Of a DNA stretch of 64,000 nucleotides, positions 7,801 to 34,029 are shown one piece after another. The position numbers and the translations under genes are program-made. Below the pieces are notes generated by a model. The model had not been told where the DNA came from and ran no database searches. It worked only from the letters and a program-made list of their open reading frames with translations. Every line of letters begins with the position of its first letter. Positions within the stretch are counted from its first letter, which is position 1. The DNA is from Aminiphilus circumscriptus DSM 16581 (lineage in GTDB: Bacteria > Synergistota > Synergistia > Synergistales > Aminiphilaceae), in NCBI RefSeq assembly GCF_000526375.1, contig NZ_JAFY01000002.1:496001-560000 (forward strand), read 5' to 3'.

Positions 7801-8045
7801 AAAAAGGCCCGTCCCCTCTCAGGGACGGGCCTTGAACCCGCGGTACCACCCTGCTTGAGCGCACACCTGTGCGCTCCCGCTCCCGGCCTGTCACGGCGGC
7901 CGAACTCCGGGACGCGTACTCCAGGAAAACCCCTTTCCGCTCCAGCTCCGCGAGCTTTCGGCATTTCCGGAACCTTCCCGAAGGCGCCTCGCAGCCGGTG
8001 AGCGCCTCTCTCTGGCGGGATTTTTCCGTGCCTCTCGCTTCATCG
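7801..8045 (-). promoter_or_regulatory. T-box riboswitch upstream of lysW
   Basis: On the minus strand, AGGGTGGTACCGCGG (7852-7838) is the canonical T-box antiterminator bulge that pairs with the acceptor end of uncharged tRNA. It is followed by a terminator hairpin GGCCCGTCCC/GGGACGGGCC (7831-7806) and TTTTT. Upstream is a stem I-like region: GCGAG (8038-8034) pairs with CTCGC (7954-7950), with an AGAGAG segment and a GGCGC/GCGCC distal hairpin. The specifier triplet cannot be assigned safely: AAA (Lys), ATG and TGC all sit in the candidate loop GGAAATGCCGAAAG. Read-through is expected when the cognate tRNA is uncharged. Confidence 0.9.
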
Positions 8046-8149
8046 CCATTGCCTTTCCGCTCGGTTCCGATCCCCTCTTCACAAAAAAAGCGCTTTCGTG
8101 ATCGCGAGTTTCCTCCGGAGGGATCCTGCGGAAATTCTGTTTGCGAAGA

Positions 8150-25114: not shown

Positions 25115-26818
25115 CTAAACGATGGTGTGGAGAAATTCATCCAGAGCCGCTCCGGCGGGGACCATGGGAAGGACCAGGTCCTTCTGGGGAATGCGGAAAT
25201 CCGCCACCGCAGGTCCCTCGGTGTCGAAGAGCCACGAGACGGCCTCGGCCAGATCCGCATTCGAGTCCACCCGCCGGGCGGGAATGCCGAAAGCGCCGGC
25301 CAGTTTTTCCACGTCGTACCCCTCGGTGCGAGTGAAACTGTATCGCTCGTTCCAGAAAAGCTGTTGCCACTGCCGGACCATTCCCAGAGAGGCATTGTTG
25401 AACAGGGCGATCTTCACGGGCAGTCCGTAGCGGGCGACGGTGTCCAATTCCTGGCAGTTCATGAGGAAGCTGCCGTCTCCGGCGATGCACACCACCGGCG
25501 CTGGTCCCCGGGGCGTGCTTCGGGCGAGGGAGACGCCCACCGCGGCGGGAAGGCCGAAGCCCATGGTGCCGAGACCGCCGGAGGTGATGAAATTTCTGGG
25601 GATCTCGGTTGTCCAGTACTGGGCGGCCCACATCTGATGCTGTCCTACCTCGGTGACCACCGGCATATCCTTTCCCGCCCGCTCCCGAAGGGCCGCGAGA
25701 ATGTTCCAGGGGGCGAGTTCCTCCCGGGGGAACGTGGACTGCAGCGGATAGGCCCGGCGCCACTCCGCGATGGCGGCGTGCCACGCCTCCCGATTCGCCT
25801 TCGTCCGTTCCCGGCCTTTCCTCTTTGTTCCTTCCAGAAGCAGGTCGAGCACTTTTTTCGCGTCTCCCACCAGGCGGTACGTGGCGGGAATGTTTTTGTC
25901 GATCTCCGCGGGATCCCGGTCGATGTGGAGAATCCGCGCTTTCGGGGCGTAGCGGTCCTTGCGTCCCGTGCTGCGTTCGCAGAACCGGGTTCCGACGCCG
26001 ATCACGAGATCCGCGCCCGAGACGGCCAGGTTCGCCCAGGGCATGCCGTGCATTCCCACGAGCCCCAGGGAAAGAGGGTGTGTCTCTGGGAACGCTCCCT
26101 TGCCCATGAGGGAGTTGACCACGGGAATACCCTGCTCCTCCGCCAGACGAAGGAGGGAGTCCCAGGCCCCGCTGAGGATGACGCCGCCTCCCGCGATGAG
26201 AACGGGTCGGGACGCGGAGAGCAGTGCATCCAGGGCGAGGTCCAGATCGGCGAGATTTTCTTTTCCCTTGGGGTCGTAGCCGGGGAAAGAGATCTCCGGT
26301 GGATAGGCGAAGGCTCCGGAGGCACGCTGTACGTCCGCGGGGATGTCCACGAGGACCGGCCCAGGACGCCCCGACCCCGCGATGTGAAAAGCCCCCCGAA
26401 GAGCCCGCTGGAGGTCCTCCGTATTCTTCACGAAGAAGCTGTGTTTCACCATGGGAAGCGTGGCGCCGAAGATATCCGCCTCCTGAAAAGCGTCGGTGCC
26501 GATGAGGCTCGTCAGGACCTGCCCGGTAAGCACCACGAGAGGAACGGAGTCCATGGCGGCGTTGGCGATGCCCGTGACGAGATTCGTCGCTCCGGGGCCG
26601 GACGTGGCGATGCAGACTCCGGTTTTTCCCGAGGCGCGGGCGTATCCGTCGGCGGCGTGGCAGGCGGCCTGTTCGTGTCGTACAAGGACGTGTTTGAACT
26701 GTGCGTCGTAGAGCGCGTCGTAAAGTGTCACCACGGTGCCTCCGGGAATGCCGAAAACCACCTCCACTCCTTCCGCCTCAAGAGCCTTCACCACCATTCG
26801 GGCTCCGGTCATCGTCAT
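25115..26818 (-). CDS. ilvB: Acetolactate synthase large subunit
   Basis: 567 residues from ATG 26818. ThDP-dependent enzyme that condenses pyruvate with pyruvate or 2-oxobutyrate, the first common step of valine/leucine/isoleucine synthesis. VRHEQAACHAADGYARASG carries the catalytic Glu; CIAGDGSFLMNCQELDTV and LFNNASLGMVRQWQQLF form the ThDP motif. The regulatory subunit gene ilvN is at the head of the operon, not next to ilvB, which is an uncommon order. Confidence 0.93.
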   Translation of the reverse strand: MTMTGARMVVKALEAEGVEVVFGIPGGTVVTLYDALYDAQFKHVLVRHEQAACHAADGYARASGKTGVCIATSGPGATNLVTGIANAAMDSVPLVVLTGQVLTSLIGTDAFQEADIFGATLPMVKHSFFVKNTEDLQRALRGAFHIAGSGRPGPVLVDIPADVQRASGAFAYPPEISFPGYDPKGKENLADLDLALDALLSASRPVLIAGGGVILSGAWDSLLRLAEEQGIPVVNSLMGKGAFPETHPLSLGLVGMHGMPWANLAVSGADLVIGVGTRFCERSTGRKDRYAPKARILHIDRDPAEIDKNIPATYRLVGDAKKVLDLLLEGTKRKGRERTKANREAWHAAIAEWRRAYPLQSTFPREELAPWNILAALRERAGKDMPVVTEVGQHQMWAAQYWTTEIPRNFITSGGLGTMGFGLPAAVGVSLARSTPRGPAPVVCIAGDGSFLMNCQELDTVARYGLPVKIALFNNASLGMVRQWQQLFWNERYSFTRTEGYDVEKLAGAFGIPARRVDSNADLAEAVSWLFDTEGPAVADFRIPQKDLVLPMVPAGAALDEFLHTIV

Positions 26819-26882
26819 GATCGTCTCTCCTCTCTTTTCTGGAGCGTTTTTCGGAGCTTTTCGCGGATCGTCTCCGTTCCGG

Positions 26883-28019
26883 CTACACTGCCGCCGCCAC
26901 GGCGTCCCCGACGGCGCTGCAAGTGGCTCCGCCGCCGAACTCCGCGGGAAGCGTGGCCTTGTCGGCCTTGCCGAGGACGTTTTCCACGGCACTCTCGATT
27001 CTCGCCGCCGCTTCGGTCTCTCCGAGGGAAAAGAGCATGAGCCCAGCGGAGAGAATCGCCGCGAGCGGATTGGCCCTTCCCGTTCCTGCGATGTCCGGCG
27101 CGGAGCCGTGGACGGGCTCGAACATGCCGAGCCCCTTGCCGATGTTCGCCCCCGCGGCGACACCCAGTCCTCCCGCGATGCCCGCCAGGAGGTCGCTCAC
27201 GATGTCTCCGAACATGTTGGGACAGAGAATGGTGTTGTACTTCCAGGGATTCCGCACCAGGTGGTAGCAGAGGGCGTCCACGTTGGCCACCTGGAAGTCC
27301 AGCCCCTGCCCGCGCACTTCGTCTCCGGCGATGGTCTCCCAGAAGCCGTAGATCTGGGGCAGGGCGTTGGATTTGGACGCCAGAAGAACGCTCTTTTCAC
27401 CCCGGCGCCGTGCGGTGTCGCAGGCGTAGGCGGCGATGCGGCGCACGCCCTCTTCTGTGGCGAGGCCGAGCTGCACCGCCGCGTTCGTCTCGGGAGAAAA
27501 GGAAAGGGTCGTGGTGCCTTTGACGGAGTAGAGGTCCCGGGAGATCTCGACGGGAAAGGAGAGATCGCCCCCCCGTCCCTCGCCGCCGATGCCCATGTAG
27601 AAATCCTCCGTGTTTTCCCGGACCACCACGGTGTCGATGCGCTTTCCCTCGGGAATGGCCACGGGAAGGGGTGTGTTGGGAAAACTGCGGGCGGGGCGCA
27701 GATTCACGAACATGTCGTAGTGGAAGCGAAGCCGCAGCAGAATGCCCCGCTCGAGAAGGCCCGGCTTGACTCTGGGGTCGCCGATGGCGCCGAGGAGCAC
27801 GGCCTGGCACTGTTCGAGTTCGCCGAGGACGGAGTCGGGAAAGATTTCCCCGGTGCGCAGATAGTGGTCCGCCCCGAAGGGATAGGGATGCCACTCCACA
27901 CCGAAACCGCAGGTCTCTCCCGCGGCGTTCACCACTTTTTGCGCCTCGGCGGTGACTTCCTTGCCGATGCCGTCCCCGGGGATGACGGCGATTCTGTAGG
28001 ATTTCGAGGTCGACTTCAT
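26883..28019 (-). CDS. leuB: 3-isopropylmalate dehydrogenase
   Basis: 378 residues from ATG 28019. Beta-decarboxylating dehydrogenase: AVIPGDGIGKEV at the N-terminus, GAIGDPRVKPGLLERG, the substrate-binding YDMFVNLRP, VVRENTEDFYMGIG and NMFGDIVSDLLAGIAGGLG with metal-binding Asp residues. The family also holds tartrate/malate and homoisocitrate dehydrogenases, and RENTED instead of RENTEG is slightly off the leucine consensus; the leuACD context supports leuB. The site GAGAGGAG lies rather far (about 12 bases) from the start. Confidence 0.87.
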   Translation of the reverse strand: MKSTSKSYRIAVIPGDGIGKEVTAEAQKVVNAAGETCGFGVEWHPYPFGADHYLRTGEIFPDSVLGELEQCQAVLLGAIGDPRVKPGLLERGILLRLRFHYDMFVNLRPARSFPNTPLPVAIPEGKRIDTVVVRENTEDFYMGIGGEGRGGDLSFPVEISRDLYSVKGTTTLSFSPETNAAVQLGLATEEGVRRIAAYACDTARRRGEKSVLLASKSNALPQIYGFWETIAGDEVRGQGLDFQVANVDALCYHLVRNPWKYNTILCPNMFGDIVSDLLAGIAGGLGVAAGANIGKGLGMFEPVHGSAPDIAGTGRANPLAAILSAGLMLFSLGETEAAARIESAVENVLGKADKATLPAEFGGGATCSAVGDAVAAAV

Positions 28020-28054
28020 GGATGCGTTTTCGCTCCTCTCGGGATATGGGGCGG

Positions 28055-28615
28055 TCAGGCGGAGACGGCCTGTTCCTGCGCGGCGAGGCGCTTTTTCACA
28101 TAGGGCGCGAGTCCTCCCGTGGCGATAAGTTCCTGGAGAAAGGGAGGAAAGGGCGCGACGGCATAGGTTTCGTTGCGGGTGAGGTTGGTGATGACCCCGG
28201 CAACTCCGTCCACGGAGAGACGGTCTCCGGGCTGAATCTTCGCGCTCGCCTCGGGGGAGATGAAGATGGGAAGCCCCACGTTGATGGCGTTGCGGAAGAA
28301 GATTCTCGCGAAGGAGGCGGCGATGATGCACGATACCTTCGCCCCCTTCACCGCCAGGGGCGCGTGCTCGCGGCTGGAGCCGCAGCCGAAGTTCTCGCCC
28401 CCGACGATGATGTCTCCCCCGGAGATCTTGGAGACGAACGCGGGGTCCGCGTCCTCCATGCAATGCTTACCCAGCTCCGCCGCATCGCTGGTGACGAGAT
28501 AGCGGGCGGGAATGATCACGTCCGTGTCAATGTCGTCCCCGAACTTCCAGGCATTTCCCTCAAGGCGGGTTTCCCGGGGAGATGCCTGGTTGCTCCGGTT
28601 CTCGGTCTCTGCCAT
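28055..28615 (-). CDS. leuD: 3-isopropylmalate dehydratase small subunit
   Basis: 186 residues. Aconitase swivel domain: DDIDTDVIIPARYL and ENFGCGSSREHAPLA, which binds substrate, then IFFRNAINVGLPI. Forms the isomerase with LeuC. Between leuC and leuD lies an unrecognised small gene (28631-28843). A close homolog pair also acts in homoaconitase, but leucine use is supported by leuA/leuB. Confidence 0.92.
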   Translation of the reverse strand: MAETENRSNQASPRETRLEGNAWKFGDDIDTDVIIPARYLVTSDAAELGKHCMEDADPAFVSKISGGDIIVGGENFGCGSSREHAPLAVKGAKVSCIIAASFARIFFRNAINVGLPIFISPEASAKIQPGDRLSVDGVAGVITNLTRNETYAVAPFPPFLQELIATGGLAPYVKKRLAAQEQAVSA

Positions 28616-28630
28616 GAAGAAGGTCTCCTC

Positions 28631-28843
28631 TCAGACCTGGTCGTCCTGCCAAGGGTCTCGGTACGGTTCTCCGAAGGGGCCGCAGAAAAGTCCTCCCAGA
28701 TAGTCGGTCTTCTCCGGCGCACTCCGCACGTCCTGCTTCTCCCGGGTGAAGAGCGGAGATCCGTTCTCGAAGGAGAAGGCAAAATGGGAGTAGGTCTGGG
28801 GAAACTCCATGCGTTCCTTTCTTTCCGATTCCTTGCGTGTCAT
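28631..28843 (-). CDS. Unrecognised 70-residue protein between leuC and leuD
   Basis: ATG 28843 follows GAGGTG by 8 bases; a second start at 28810 (59 residues) also has an AAAGGA site. Strongly basic N-terminus (MTRKESERKERMEFPQ), hydrophilic middle, and an aromatic-acidic tail (GLFCGPFGEPYRDPWQDD). No signal peptide or helix. It ends 15 bases before leuD, so it sits as a regular operon member. I do not recognise a family; a role in assembling or regulating the isomerase is possible only by position. Confidence 0.6.
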   Translation of the reverse strand: MTRKESERKERMEFPQTYSHFAFSFENGSPLFTREKQDVRSAPEKTDYLGGLFCGPFGEPYRDPWQDDQV

Positions 28844-28926
28844 CTTCTCCACCTCATTTCGTTTGTTTGTGCCGCTCTATTGCTCTGTTGCACAAAAATG
28901 AAGCCTCTAATGAAGCCTCTTCCGGC

Positions 28927-30207
28927 TCAAAGGCCCTTCCAAAAATCCCCGGAGACGAGTTCCCGGGGATCGGTGATGTGGCCCGTCACAGCGGTGGCCG
29001 CCGCCACGAGGGGGCCCGCAAGATAGACTTCGCTCTGAGGATGCCCCATGCGTCCCACGAAGTTCCTGTTGCTCGTCGCAAGACAACGTTCTCCCGCGGC
29101 GAGAATGCCCATGTGTCCGCCCAGACAGGGGCCGCAGGTAGGGGTGCTCACGGCGGCACCCGCCTCGATGAAGATGTCCAGATAGCCCCGCTTCATGCAT
29201 TCCGCGAAGACTTCGTAGGAGGCGGGGATGACGATGCACCGTACCGAATCGGCGACGCGCCGTCCCTTGAGCAGTTTCGCCGCGAGCTCCATGTCCCGAA
29301 GCCTTCCGTTGGTGCAGGAGCCGAGAAAGACCTGTTCCACCTTGGTCCCGGAGAGCTCCGCCGCACGCCGCATGTTCCCCGGAGAGCTGGGGGCCGCCAC
29401 GAGTGGTTCCAGAGCTGCTACGTCGATCTCGATGCGCTGGGCGTAGGACGCATCCTCGTCGGGGTAGATCGCCTCGAAGGAGCGCCTGCCCCGGGCTTTT
29501 GCGTAGGCGAGAACCGCCTCGTCGGGAACGAAGATCCCCGCCTTGGCGCCGCCTTCCACGGCCATGTTGGCCACGGTGAAGCGGTCGTCCAGGGGAAGAT
29601 CCTTCACGGCGGTGCCGCCGAACTCCAGGGCGGCGTAGCGTGCTCCCTGAACACCTATGCGCCCCAGAAGAGCGAGAATGAAATCCTTGCCGGTGATCCA
29701 GGGCGCACGCGTTCCCTCGAAATCCACCCGGATGGTGGGGGGCACGAGGAACCAGGTCTCTCCCAGCGCCCAGGCGGCGGCCAGGTCGGTGGAACCCATG
29801 CCCGTGGCGAAGGCCCCGAGGGTGCCGCCGCTGCAGGTATGGCTGTCCGCGCCCACAACGATGTCGCCGGGAAGAAGAAGCCCCTGCTCGGGAAGGAAGG
29901 CATGTTCCACGCCCACCCGTCCCACTTCCCAGTAAAGCATGCCCATCTCACGGGCGAAGTCCCGGGCCTCCTTGGCCTGCTGGGCCGCCGCGATGTCCTT
30001 GTTGGGCGTGAAGTGATCGGGCAGAATGGCGCACCGGTCCGGATCGAAGACCTTGCGGGCGCCCATCTCCCGGAATGCGCGCATTGCGGGAGGAGCGGTG
30101 ATGTCGTTGGCGAAGGCGAAGTCCACCCGGACGGAACAGATGTCCCCCTCCTTGGCGGAATCAGCCGTGTGCGCCGCCAGAATCGCGCTAGGCAGCGTTC
30201 GAGGCAT
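28927..30207 (-). CDS. leuC: 3-isopropylmalate dehydratase large subunit
   Basis: 426 residues, the shorter archaeal/anaerobe-type LeuC. 4Fe-4S aconitase fold: VGADSHTCSGGTLGAFATG, FLGSCTNGRLRDME and STPTCGPCLGGHMG carry the three cluster cysteines. The start overlaps the leuA stop by 20 bases. Isomerises 2-isopropylmalate to 3-isopropylmalate with LeuD. Confidence 0.93.
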   Translation of the reverse strand: MPRTLPSAILAAHTADSAKEGDICSVRVDFAFANDITAPPAMRAFREMGARKVFDPDRCAILPDHFTPNKDIAAAQQAKEARDFAREMGMLYWEVGRVGVEHAFLPEQGLLLPGDIVVGADSHTCSGGTLGAFATGMGSTDLAAAWALGETWFLVPPTIRVDFEGTRAPWITGKDFILALLGRIGVQGARYAALEFGGTAVKDLPLDDRFTVANMAVEGGAKAGIFVPDEAVLAYAKARGRRSFEAIYPDEDASYAQRIEIDVAALEPLVAAPSSPGNMRRAAELSGTKVEQVFLGSCTNGRLRDMELAAKLLKGRRVADSVRCIVIPASYEVFAECMKRGYLDIFIEAGAAVSTPTCGPCLGGHMGILAAGERCLATSNRNFVGRMGHPQSEVYLAGPLVAAATAVTGHITDPRELVSGDFWKGL

Positions 30208-31744
30208 GCAGTGTCACTCCCTTTGCGGCGGCGAGTTGATAGAGGCGGTTCACGGCGTTCACGTAGGCCTTGATGCTCGCCTCGATGACGTCCGTGCTGG
30301 CGCCGCGTCCCCTCGCCACGAGCTTGTCCGTTTTGAGGACGATGTCCGCTTCTCCCACCGCGTCGGACTTTTCGCTCACGGCGGTGATCTTGTAGCTCAC
30401 GAGTTCGGGCTTGAAGCCAACGATGCGCATCATCGCCGCGTAGGAGGCGTTCACGGGACCGTTCCCCGTCGCGGCGTCGCTTCGCTCCTCCGTGCCATCG
30501 TGGAGGGTTACCGAAGCAGTGGCTCTTCCCTTTCCGGCGAGGTTGACGCTGAAGTCCTTGAGGACGAAACGCCGGCTCGGCACAACGGCGAGGATGTCGT
30601 CCACCACGAGGGCCTCCAGATCTCCGTCGGTGACCATCTCCTTTTTATCGGAGAGTTCCTTGAAGAGAGAAAAGGCCTCTCCCACCTGGGTTTCCGTGAG
30701 GTTGTACCCCAGATCTTCCAGGCGTTTCCGGAAGGCGTGTTTTCCCGAGTGTTTTCCCAGCACGAGCTGGCTTCCCGGAGCTCCCACGTCCTCGGGAGTC
30801 ATGATCTCGTAGGTGGCCTTGTTGCAGAGCACGCCGTGCTGGTGGATTCCCGCCTCGTGGGCGAAGGCGTTGCCGCCGACGATGGCCTTGTTCGGCGGAA
30901 CCTGCACGCCCGTGAGGCGCGACACGAGACGGCTCGCGCCGTAGAGGCGCTTGGTGTCCAGCCGGGTCTCCACGCCGAAACGGTCCTTCCGCGTCCGCAG
31001 GGCCATGACGATCTCCTCCAGGGAGGCGTTCCCCGCCCGCTCTCCGATACCGTTCACGGTGCACTCAACCTGCCTGGCCCCGGAGGCCACGGCCTCGAGG
31101 GAGTTCGCCACCGCGAGCCCAAGGTCGTTGTGGCAGTGCACGGACCAGATCACGTCGGGTCCCGCGTTCACCCGGGTGATGATCTCCCGGACGAAGGCGC
31201 CGAATTCCTTGGAGACCGCGTAGCCCACCGTGTCGGGAATGTTGATGGTGGTCGCCCCTTCGGCGATGGCGATTTTGAAGACCTCCACGAGAAAGTCGAT
31301 GTCCGAGCGGCTCGCGTCCTCCGCGGAGAATTCCACGTCCGGAACGAGAGACCGGGCGACGGCGACGGCGCGCTTGACTTCTTCGAGGACCTTTTCACGG
31401 GTCATCTTCAGCTTGTACTGGAGATGGATGTCGCTGGTGGCGATGAACGTGTGGATCCGGGGACGAGCGGCGGGACGAACCGCTTCCGCGCAGGCCTGGA
31501 GATCCTCCGTCCTCGTTCTGGCGAGCCCGGCGATGACAGGGCCGGAAATCTGCTCGGCGATGCTCCGGACGGCCTCGAAATCCCCCGGCGATGCGGCGGG
31601 AAATCCCGCCTCGATGACGTTCACCTGGAGGCGGGCGAGCTGGTGGGCGATCTGGAGTTTTTCCGCGCAGTTCAGGTTGATTCCCGCGGACTGTTCGCCG
31701 TCCCGCAACGTGGTGTCGAAAATGCGTACGAAATCCTCGCTCAT
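30188..31744 (-). CDS. leuA: 2-isopropylmalate synthase
   Basis: 518 residues. DRE-TIM barrel: [30 protein letters not shown] (metal His residues) and [14 protein letters not shown]; the C-terminal 120 residues form the LeuA allosteric domain ([39 protein letters not shown]), so leucine feedback inhibition is expected. Presence of this domain separates it from most homocitrate synthases. Follows ilvC after a 77-base gap with a hairpin. Confidence 0.94.
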
Positions 31745-31773
31745 CTTCTCTCAGACTCCTTCCCTGCCAAGGC

Positions 31774-31810
31774 CCTTCTCCGCTCCGGCGCCTCCCGAAA
31801 GCGGAGAAGG
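31774..31810. other. Intercistronic hairpin between ilvC and leuA
   Basis: ccttctccgct pairs perfectly with agcggagaagg (11 bp) around a 15-base loop, with no T-run. Probably an mRNA stability or processing element that sets different levels for ilvNC and leuACDB. Confidence 0.5.
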
Positions 31811-31821
31811 AACGCTGTTCC

Positions 31822-32832
31822 TCAATCCTCCGGAGCCGATTTGGCCTCCATCCAGGGCATCATCTTGCGCAGTTCCGCGCCGACCTTCTCGATGGAATGA
31901 TTCTTCTCCCGCTCCATCCACTTCTTCATGACCGGACGGCCGGACTGGTTTTCGAGGATCCAGTCCCTGGCGAATTCGCCGCTTTGCACCCGGCGGAGGA
32001 GTTCCTTCATGTTCTCCCGTACGTGCGCATCCACCACCTTGGGACCGGCGACGCAATCGCCGTACTTGGCGGTGTCGCTCACGGAATAGCGCATCCAGCC
32101 CAGGCCGCCCTCGAACATCATGTCCACGATGAGCTTCAGCTCGTTGAGGCACTCGAAATAGGCGATCTCGGGCTGGTATCCCGCGTCGACGAGCGTGTCG
32201 AATCCGGCCTTCACCAGCTCCGTCACGCCGCCGCAGAGAACGGCCTGTTCGCCGAAGAGGTCCGTCTCGGTCTCCTCCGCGAAGGTGGTCTCGATGATGC
32301 CCGCCCGGCCGCAGCCGATGCCGGAACCGTAGGCGAGGGCCACATCCTTCGCCTTGCCGGAGGCATCCTGGTAGATGGCCAGGAGGCCGGGAACGCCCTT
32401 TTTCTCTACATACATGCGGCGGACCAGATGGCCCGGTCCCTTGGGGGCGATCATGAAGACGTCCGTGTCCTTCGGGGGCTCCACCTGGTTGAAATGAATG
32501 GTGAACCCATGGGCAAAGGCGAGAGTGGCACCCTTCTTCAGGTTGGGGCGCACGTCCTCCCGATAGACCTTCGCCTGGACGTGGTCGGGCATGAGGAACA
32601 TGACGATGTCTCCCTTGGCGACGGCCTTTGCCACGGAGAGTACCTCGAAGCCGTCCTTTTCGGCGGTTTTTTTCGAACGGCTGCCCTCGTGAAGACCGAT
32701 GAGCACCGACACACCACTGTCGCGGAGATTCTGGGCATGGGCATGACCCTGACTGCCGTATCCGAGGATGACCACGGTCTTGCCCTTGAGTACCTTCATC
32801 TGTGCGTCCTTGTCGTAGTACACGTTTGCCAC
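31822..32832 (-). CDS. ilvC: Ketol-acid reductoisomerase
   Basis: 336 residues (class I length) from GTG 32832, 8 bases after AAGGAGG. Rossmann loop [17 protein letters not shown]; the next loop [12 protein letters not shown] has the Ser/Arg/Ser pattern of NADPH users. [31 protein letters not shown] and [17 protein letters not shown] contain the metal and catalytic acidic residues. Converts acetolactate and acetohydroxybutyrate to the dihydroxy acids used by ilvD. Confidence 0.94.
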
Positions 32833-33028
32833 GTTTCTTCCTCCTTCAGCTTTTTCCTCGATCCGATTCGGGATCTCTCCGAAAAAAGCGCGAAATGCGC
32901 CCCGGAAAGAATGCCTTGTCCTGTCTTCGTCCGATGTTGCAGCCCTTTGAACGCGTCTTTTCCGAGACGTTCTTCCCGGGTTGATGCCGGGGTCTTTTCT
33001 CCTCCCTTCCTCGGTCGTTTCAGAGATC

Positions 33029-33060
33029 GCGCCGGGGAGCACATCTGCTCTCCCCGGCGC
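33029..33060. other. Intercistronic hairpin between ilvN and ilvC
   Basis: gcgccggggag pairs with ctccccggcgc (11 bp) directly after the ilvN stop; no T-run follows. The 232-base ilvN-ilvC gap shows no other clear element. Confidence 0.5.
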
Positions 33061-33064
33061 GGAT

Positions 33065-33640
33065 TCATGCGAATGAAGGTTCGGGATGTCGCAGGGATTC
33101 CGTCTTCGTCTCGCGGACGGGAATCTCCTGCCGGGACGTGCGGGAATCGGCGGCGAATCCGGCGCGTTCCATGGCGACGGCGCCGCTGGAGGCCACTTCC
33201 AGGATGCCGAAGGGGCGAACCGCCTCGACGAAGGCATCCATTTTCCCCTGATCGCCCGTGAGCTCCAGGATCACCGCATCCTCCCCCATGTCCACCACGC
33301 GACAACGGAAGACCTCCGCGGTCTGGAGGACGTGGGGACGGACATCCATGGGAGCGTGGACCTTCACGAGCATCATCCACCGCTCCACGAAGGGATTTCT
33401 GTTCAGGCTGCGGACCTCCACGGTCTCCACGAGCTTTTCCAGCTGCTTCACGATCTGGTCCGCGGGCACGTCGTCCCCGCCTACGACCAGAGTGAACCGG
33501 GAAAGTCCAGGTTGATGCGTGCGCCCCACGCTTAGGCTGTTCACGTTGTACCCTCTCCGGGACACGAGCCCGGAAAGCCGCGAGAGAACTCCGGGATGAT
33601 CCTCCGTCAGAACGCTGATGGTGGTGTGTTTGTGCCGCAT
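33065..33640 (-). CDS. ilvN: Acetolactate synthase small (regulatory) subunit
   Basis: 191 residues behind GGAGGG. Two ACT-type halves: [21 protein letters not shown] with the valine-binding GVL region, [12 protein letters not shown], then a second domain with [19 protein letters not shown] and [13 protein letters not shown]. About 25 residues longer than usual at the polar C-terminus. Gives valine feedback inhibition to IlvB, encoded about 6 kb downstream in the same operon. First structural gene after the attenuator. Confidence 0.93.
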
Positions 33641-33771: not shown

Positions 33772-33808
33772 AAAAAAGGGCCGGGACCCGTCTTGCGGGT
33801 CCCGGCCC
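33772..33808 (-). terminator. ilv attenuator terminator
   Basis: On the minus strand GGGCCGGGACCCG pairs with CGGGTCCCGGCCC (13 bp, 5-base loop) followed by TTTTTT. Its rising arm contains GGGACCCGC (33803-33795), which is perfectly complementary to GCGGGTCCC (33861-33853) inside the leader peptide gene, giving a 9-bp antiterminator. Confidence 0.92.
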
Positions 33809-33826
33809 TGGTAGCCCTTCGGTCGG

Positions 33827-33937
33827 TTACATGCGACCGAGCGCTCCGGGAGGGGACCCGCAGCGAAGAATAAGGACTACAAGCAGAATAAGGGCCAGAG
33901 AAGAGCGAATCACTGTTGCGGCCTGTGTCTCGTGCAC
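33827..33937 (-). CDS. ilv operon leader peptide (attenuation)
   Basis: 36 codons from GTG 33937, 8 bases after AAGGAGG. The control region LALILLVVLIL (residues 14-24) has six Leu, two Ile and two Val; the C-terminus CGSPPGALGRM resembles the end of the E. coli ilv leader. Ribosome stalling there leaves GCGGGTCCC free to pair with the terminator arm (read-through); when charged tRNA is ample, the ribosome covers it and the terminator forms. The ATG at 33944 in another frame is too close to the ribosome-binding site. Confidence 0.9.
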   Translation of the reverse strand: MHETQAATVIRSSLALILLVVLILRCGSPPGALGRM

Positions 33938-34000
33938 GAGTCATCCCTCCTTTTTGTGAGCTTCGGTCATCGTTCGGCTGGGCCGTTCGAGTTGTTGGAC

Positions 34001-34029
34001 ATTCTAGGCTCCTTTGTGTTCTGTGTCAA
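34001..34029 (-). promoter_or_regulatory. Promoter of the ilvNC-leuACDB-ilvB operon
   Basis: TTGACA (34029-34024), 17 bases, TAGAAT (34006-34001) on the minus strand, a near-consensus sigma70 promoter. Start near 33994, giving a 57-base leader before the leader-peptide GTG. Confidence 0.85.

Follow-up and report, generated by a model that had tools for sequence, protein, structure and literature searches.

What controls the branched-chain amino acid genes that follow positions 33772-34029 in a 64,000-nucleotide stretch of the Aminiphilus circumscriptus DSM 16581 genome (hereafter the window)? A sequence-only reading had proposed that this region is a complete ribosome-mediated attenuator. Leader-peptide attenuation of ilv genes is known from enterobacteria, Corynebacterium, Staphylococcus and Listeria (PMC10272879, PMC5794164, PMC5864092), and the authors of a 2010 study knew of leader-peptide systems only in Proteobacteria and Actinobacteria before their own Firmicutes cases (PMC2965389). 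The text of a screen in Thermovirga lienii, a member of the Synergistetes, names no attenuator there (PMC6429828). We found no literature linking Synergistetes or Synergistota to amino-acid leader-peptide attenuation; subscription papers were outside the scope of this search, and an earlier report is not excluded.

We asked if the region meets the criteria for such an attenuator, namely a short leader ORF with a ribosome-binding site before the operon, a cluster of codons for the operon's own amino acids, an intrinsic terminator between the leader and the first gene, an alternative antiterminator that excludes the terminator, and a stalled ribosome that leaves the antiterminator free. With a probability of about 0.92, and without expression data, we conclude that 33772-34029 is a ribosome-mediated attenuator of ilvN-ilvC-leuACDB-ilvB and a member of a Synergistota family whose sensing codons have been swapped.

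Architecture of the ilvN leader region

All parts of the attenuator, like the operon behind it, lie on the minus strand. Pfam matches give the gene order as ilvN (acetolactate synthase small subunit and first structural gene, 33065-33640; ALS_ss_C, ACT_AHAS_ss), ilvC (ketol-acid reductoisomerase, 31822-32820; KARI_N, KARI_C), leuA (30188-31744; HMGL-like, LeuA_dimer), leuC (28927-30207; Aconitase), leuD (28055-28615; Aconitase_C), leuB (26883-28000; Iso_dh) and ilvB (acetolactate synthase large subunit and last gene, 25115-26850; TPP_enzyme_N/M/C), with the 5' ends of ilvC, leuB and ilvB approximate. The two acetolactate synthase subunits, encoded first and last in 25115-33640, are thus about 6 kb apart. 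IlvN is 98% identical in a near relative, Synergistaceae bacterium UBA5560, in line with the phylum named by the sequence-only reading.

The near-consensus promoter of the sequence-only reading is a sigma-70-type promoter at 34029-34001, with a -35 element TTGACA (34029-34024), a 17-bp spacer and a -10 element TAGAAT (34006-34001) that together match the consensus at 11 of 12 positions. It is the sole sigma-70-like site in the 8 kb scanned, and it is kept in relatives: in 98.7% of 75 relatives the leader is preceded by a promoter with at least 10 of 12 matches, compared with 3.5% of shuffles. Downstream of it, a Shine-Dalgarno sequence, AAGGAGGG, at about 33952-33945 precedes a leader gene of 36 codons (33937-33827) that begins with GTG, ends with TAA and encodes VHETQAATVIRSSLALILLVVLILRCGSPPGALGRM; 80 of 87 relatives have an equivalent ORF. 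The leader ORF and its ribosome-binding site, both as first described, meet the first criterion at the level of sequence, and translation of the leader is inferred.

Codons 14-24 of this ORF (33898-33866) specify the control run LALILLVVLIL, in which 10 of 11 residues are Leu, Ile or Val. At gene composition, a 13-residue stretch with at least 11 such residues has P = 7e-6, and the run is kept as a class across relatives, meeting the codon-cluster criterion. Among the codons of the run are CUU, AUU and GUA, all minor ones in the window's genes, and most of the control codons are of this minor kind. AUU accounts for 15% of Ile codons in those genes, compared with 71% in leaders across the phylum and all three in the present leader. 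These minor codons may sharpen the response or may keep the run free of stable pairing.

Directly 3' of the control codons is a hairpin, CGCUgCGGGUCCCCUCCCGgAGCG (33865-33842), predicted in many, though not all, relatives. This hairpin is a candidate pause or protector element that could pause polymerase and hide the antiterminator strand, a role that we infer. The antiterminator strand itself (segment 2, GCGGGUCCC, 33861-33853) is complementary to segment 3 (GGGACCCGC, 33803-33795), as had been proposed, forming an antiterminator of 9-10 bp; segment 3 is common to this helix and to the terminator. The intrinsic terminator is a stem-loop at 33809-33777 with a CAAGA loop, followed by a T6 U-tract (33777-33772). 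Its stem and T6 had been recognized from the sequence; the stem length needs correction from 13 pairs to 14 when the outer A-U pair is counted. The terminator (33809-33772) lies between the leader and ilvN, meeting the third criterion, and the 109-nt fold has a z-score of -7.4 relative to shuffles.

Conservation and covariation before ilvN

The check suggested by the sequence-only reading was to look upstream of ilvN in other Synergistota for conserved Leu/Ile/Val codons and covarying stems. To do this, we sought IlvN in 188 Synergistota genomes and took the upstream DNA, which gave 87 loci with usable sequence. A Leu/Ile/Val-rich short ORF, an antiterminator strand and a terminator were found before ilvN at 80 of these 87 loci, and the stems covary as described below; the U-tract is short at two of the positive loci (L078 and L079). 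The positive loci come from ten sampled families, including a distant lineage (f11) outside the window's order, and with IlvN identities across these loci between 98% and about 33%, the conservation of the attenuator does not reflect recent common descent. The absence of conserved leader codons and stems that would have spoken against the sequence-only reading was not seen. All seven loci without the arrangement (L085-L087 and L090-L093) have ilvB directly upstream of ilvN, and we saw no leader or attenuator before ilvB in ilvB-first operons where the sequence was readable.

Two further observations concern the distribution of the element. The attenuator is almost wholly absent from a large genus with the ilvB-ilvN order (g16 in family f5; L085-L092), either because it was lost along with operon rearrangement or because the operon was replaced. 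In genome G121 (C8:513629, L146), two successive copies of the ilvN attenuator flank a run of N, which could be an assembly duplication or a pair of tandem attenuators.

To assess covariation, we used an alignment of 68 sequences (A1). The antiterminator comprises nine pairs in this alignment, with 88% of cells standard and five pairs that change on both sides, and its covariation score is 0.245, compared with 0.206 (sd 0.008) when shuffled and 0.04-0.12 when slid. For the terminator, 87 cells carry double changes, compared with 24 after shuffling. The shuffles leave relatedness in, a weakness for which the slid controls and the paralogs described below help to compensate. Examples of paired change are GCGGGCUCC with GGAGCCCGC (L042), GCGGAUCCC with GGGAUCC (L053 and L056) and GGGGAUUCC with GGGGUCCCC (L081). 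Across 78 ilvN elements, pairing of the antiterminator strand with its own arm scored -22.9, compared with -20.8 for permuted arms. The coevolution of segments 2 and 3 and this own-arm preference meet the criterion of an alternative antiterminator that excludes the terminator. As the element is conserved in 80 of 87 relatives, the promoter is kept and both helices covary, chance can be excluded.

The codons of the CGSPPGA peptide end are also the antiterminator strand, so the same letters could be constrained through the peptide. If the peptide itself were functional, CGSPPGA would act as an arrest peptide in the ribosome tunnel or as a free peptide, with RNA pairing secondary. An (S/R)CGSPPGA end is conserved over much of the phylum and Pro-Pro slows ribosomes, as this explanation would have it. 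However, the residues change with the strand, in that L042 reads GLP in place of GSP and its RNA partner has changed too; in aromatic-type paralogs a different reading frame runs over this RNA (GVGPP); and the ORF of paralog L167 ends before the scaffold. Together with the covariation, these observations place the constraint on the RNA, and we regard a functional peptide as very unlikely. A Pfam and NCBIfam search with four leader peptides gave no meaningful match.

The E. coli ilvGMEDA leader (ilvL), a proven attenuator, offers a direct comparison. Like the Synergistota element, it has a leader ORF with Ile/Val/Leu codons and a U-rich intrinsic terminator, its antiterminator strand is an in-frame TGC GGG (Cys-Gly) just after the control run, and about 24 nt separate the antiterminator strand from the stop codon in both. 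The operon differs, as that of Synergistota has ilvN first and includes leuACDB. The ilvL peptide end, PPCGAALGRGKA, recalls the Synergistota CGSPPGA, and the sequence-only reading had counted this among the signs of an enterobacterial likeness. That likeness stands for folding, where ilvL gave a stalled-ribosome profile of the same kind in the same calculation (see below). As paralog reading frames shift over conserved RNA, the likeness of the peptide ends most likely reflects the RNA antiterminator and not peptide function. A covariance model built from A1 (R1) matches ilvL over its full length with only 19.2 bits (E = 0.001 in a 73-kb search), and convergence of the Synergistota element with enterobacterial ilvL is not excluded.

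Predicted switching of the leader RNA

In the mechanism that we propose, transcription would start near 33994, with a ribosome translating the leader ORF behind RNA polymerase. A shortage of charged tRNA-Leu, -Val or -Ile would stall this ribosome on the control run; segment 2 would then pair with segment 3 as it emerges, and polymerase would pass the terminator. When charged tRNAs are plentiful, the ribosome would move through segment 2, segment 3 would pair with segment 4, and transcription would end at 33772. Stalling, read-through and the direction of the response (a rise upon shortage of Leu-, Val- or Ile-tRNA) are inferred.

We folded the leader RNA with the ribosome footprint and all RNA 5' of the ribosome barred from pairing, at the stage before segment 4 is made. 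In these constrained folds, a ribosome halted anywhere from codon 10 to codon 21 gave an antiterminator probability of 1.0; the value fell to 0.78 at codon 22, 0.41 at codon 23 and 0 from codon 24 on. For a stalled ribosome, the mean over 78 relatives was 0.78. The criterion that a stalled ribosome leaves the antiterminator free is met, by computation only. With the ribosome at the stop codon, the antiterminator probability was 0.0 when all RNA 5' of the ribosome was excluded, and averaged 0.68 over 78 relatives when only the footprint was masked. Because footprint-only masking keeps the antiterminator likely, termination under plenty is inferred to rest on timing. Equilibrium folding with the full terminator was useless as a test of switching, as the terminator wins in every case once segment 4 is present; control must therefore be kinetic. 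Without a ribosome, too, the antiterminator is the favoured fold, which differs from the known behaviour of the trp attenuator.

Conservation, covariation and stalled-ribosome folding thus bear out the proposed ribosome-mediated transcription attenuation at 33772-34029, which we consider well supported in the absence of expression data. In a Streptomyces ilvB leader of similar layout, codon changes were without effect, a warning that a leader rich in branched-chain amino acids may not regulate through its codons (PMC1262725).

Related elements with other sensing codons

The sequence-only reading had covered only one member of a multi-copy family. A search of 188 Synergistota genomes with model R1 places the element in 145 of them and in 58 of 63 genera, commonly with several copies in one genome. 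Genus g16, where matches are scarce and weak, serves as an internal negative. A second model (R2), made from the scaffold without the control run plus 18 paralogs found by R1, gave about five copies that we consider credible in the window's genome, and the number of matches reached about 19 in G121. We judged matches above about E = 1e-4 to be mostly chance or bare terminators. We read the regulon closely in only eight genomes, R2 was not run over all 188, and the gene links given here leave out copies with unresolved downstream genes (L134, L204, L205 and L156).

The paralogs carry other sensing codons, usually before matching genes. Met/Cys runs precede metQ (MMCTMMMC in L160, C2:1112879-1112969 on the plus strand of the window's genome, outside the window, leader MTRCFTKRFTNGMMCTMMMCDDGGSPPGRTGGC; MMMCSMMMC in L164; MMMCDMMCC in L200), metN (MMMCMC, L151), metY (MMMCGMMMC in L188, and L140 by likeness) and metX (MMMREMMMC, L202). 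Thr-type runs precede homoserine dehydrogenase (TTTTTMTT and TMTT in L155 and L210) and aspartokinase (MTMT, L194), and Ile runs precede threonine/serine dehydratase (IIII in L163, C2:903699-903791 on the minus strand of the window's genome, outside the window, leader IIIITSAAPPRRTGA) and threonine dehydratase (III, L169). Leu types lie before leuA (LWLLL, LSLLL and LILLVLAL in L196, L135 and L132), and a Val type before panB and ilvE (VVVVV, L142). Branched-chain types (L131, L171, L190, L139, L150 and L187) lie before SNF-type transporters, an LctP-type permease, a TRAP-like transporter and leuCDB, the genes at L150 and L187 being named by eye.

Among the aromatic types, FFTVRYYF, FTYYY and FFEYYY (L165, L136 and L143) and a Phe/Tyr type (L162) precede phenylacetate-CoA ligase, RFYFYY and LFWYGYYF (L177 and L197) precede SSF transporters, and FFLYWF (L147) precedes a transporter of no known family. 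The gene behind a Phe type, FFFSFFF (L138), is binding-protein-like and may encode a cyclohexadienyl dehydratase, an assignment that was not resolved. Two weaker matches on the minus strand of the window's genome are SFYFYFWY(AT) at C7:502596 (L167), before a GlcD-like FAD oxidase, and FTFSFRTVGYSCF at C5:405047 (L173), before a YkvI-like transporter with no Pfam or NCBIfam match; these leaders suggest an aromatic substrate for both proteins. We found no His-type leader among the family members, which fits the assignment of Synergistota histidine genes to the HisR repressor (PMC9413887).

The scaffold also occurs at L161 (G020 C1:3022460, minus strand), before a gene run with a class I/II aminotransferase; its leader, LLAAAAMCGGPPGGAGAP, is rich in Ala, and sensing of Ala is possible but without significance (P = 0.68), so that we did not accept it. 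Just downstream of the branched-chain-type attenuators L134 and L205 are short ORFs with a repeated WRGPFEG (RWRGPFEGVR and RWRGPFEGYR) and no Rfam match.

The links between sensing codons and downstream genes bear on another explanation of the locus, that a plain terminator or pause site lies beside a fortuitous hydrophobic ORF while a DNA-binding protein regulates at the promoter. No experiment excludes an added promoter-level regulator, which ilv genes often have. This explanation gives no role to the codon runs, to antiterminator covariation or to the match of codons and genes in the paralogs, and we give it almost no credence in comparison with attenuation.

To assess pairing in the wider family, we compared 50 elements with permuted arms. 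Own-arm antiterminator pairing averaged -19.2 kcal/mol, compared with -16.4 (sd 0.34) after permutation, and none of 5000 permutations was as good; within-class relatedness was left in, and arms of other classes averaged -16.3. Among 22 matches in genomes little used for R2, the control-codon cluster reached P<0.05 in nine and P<0.01 in six, where about 1 and 0.2 would be expected by chance. As the shuffle retains biased composition and 13 classes were scanned, this held-out test is only moderately strong and is not our main support.

The origin of the copies is less certain than the mechanism at the locus. We lean, at slightly better than even odds, towards a general amino-acid-starvation regulon that grew from one ancestral attenuator by repeated duplication and re-coding, with variants for Leu, Ile, Val, Met/Cys, Thr and Phe/Tyr/Trp and with ribosome stalling taking the role of the T-box. 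Scaffold identity between genomes is 71% within a class, 67-68% between classes and 57% when shuffled, values that, as sequence comparisons, fit old paralogs and do not prove duplication over convergence. Repeated convergence, which would leave the mechanism at the locus untouched, is a tentative but real alternative: all copies share functional constraints in needing a GC-rich antiterminator and a terminator, their likeness comes partly from selection by the model that found them, and in only 21 of 35 cases does the nearest neighbour in another genome share the class. Yet the copies have letters in common beyond pairing, GCGG(G/A)UC...CCUCC and GGCCGGGA, E. coli ilvL performs the same task and reaches only 19 bits with the model, and 119 Actinomycetota genomes contain no comparable element, the best match being partial (E = 2.8e-7) and without a leader.

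Leader-peptide attenuators (trp, his, ilv, leu, thr and phe) have mostly been described as isolated devices without relation to one another, and whether each arose independently is unsettled. To our knowledge, E. coli does not reuse its scaffold for Met, Thr or aromatic genes. The Corynebacterium ilvB-II uORF, ilvB-OMG and Leptospira ilvB motifs have uORFs rich in branched-chain codons with attenuation proposed, and the Corynebacterium motif was tested with reporters (PMC10272879). These motifs belong to other lineages, differ in sequence and are single-gene, and the section on ilvB motifs does not mention Synergistota. In Staphylococcus aureus and Listeria, a leader peptide rich in branched-chain amino acids controls read-through into the ilv-leu operon; these attenuators are layered with CodY, and no multi-specificity scaffold is reported for them (PMC5794164, PMC5864092). 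These Firmicutes cases show that the sequence-only reading overstated its contrast with lineages said to use T-boxes or CodY instead. The single ilv attenuator adds a member to a known type, and what is new is the shared, re-coded scaffold.

With one scaffold serving many specificities, the order in which the copies arose, the way codons were exchanged and the coevolution of the RNA become open to direct test. Links from sensor to gene also allow predictions of what unassigned transporters carry and of the physiology of little-studied anaerobes; if they are true, the attenuators before phenylacetate-CoA ligase would imply that aryl acetates serve these amino-acid fermenters as precursors of aromatic amino acids under Phe/Tyr/Trp starvation. 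The covariance model can be used to annotate these genomes, and Rfam holds none for this element.

Our best reading is a phylum-wide family of re-coded attenuators in the role of Firmicutes T-boxes. T-box riboswitches likewise re-code one scaffold for many amino acids within a genome, choose between terminator and antiterminator, and control biosynthesis, transport and related genes, but they read uncharged tRNA via a specifier codon, whereas the Synergistota sensor is a ribosome on a codon run. A T-box or a metabolite riboswitch (e.g., of the ppGpp class) could in principle sense at 33772-34029 with the ORF incidental, as T-boxes or ppGpp riboswitches control ilv operons elsewhere among bacteria and this genome has three T-boxes. 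We find this hardly credible: no Rfam family matched the region even at E up to 5, including the T-box leader (RF00230, sequence AGGGUGGNACCGCG plus Stem I), and the conserved part is an ORF whose amino-acid-specific codons vary with the downstream gene. Across the window, none of 4227 Rfam models exceeded its gathering threshold. The T-box within the window (7818-8052, minus strand) carries AGGGUGGUACCGCG, scores 55 bits relative to an Rfam gathering score of 93, and lies 26 kb from the attenuator, which corrects the earlier statement that the two are next to each other. This divergent T-box precedes a gene for a RimK-like ATP-grasp protein and one that is argC/lysY-like, and the other two T-boxes of the genome are at C7:479021 and C7:222360.
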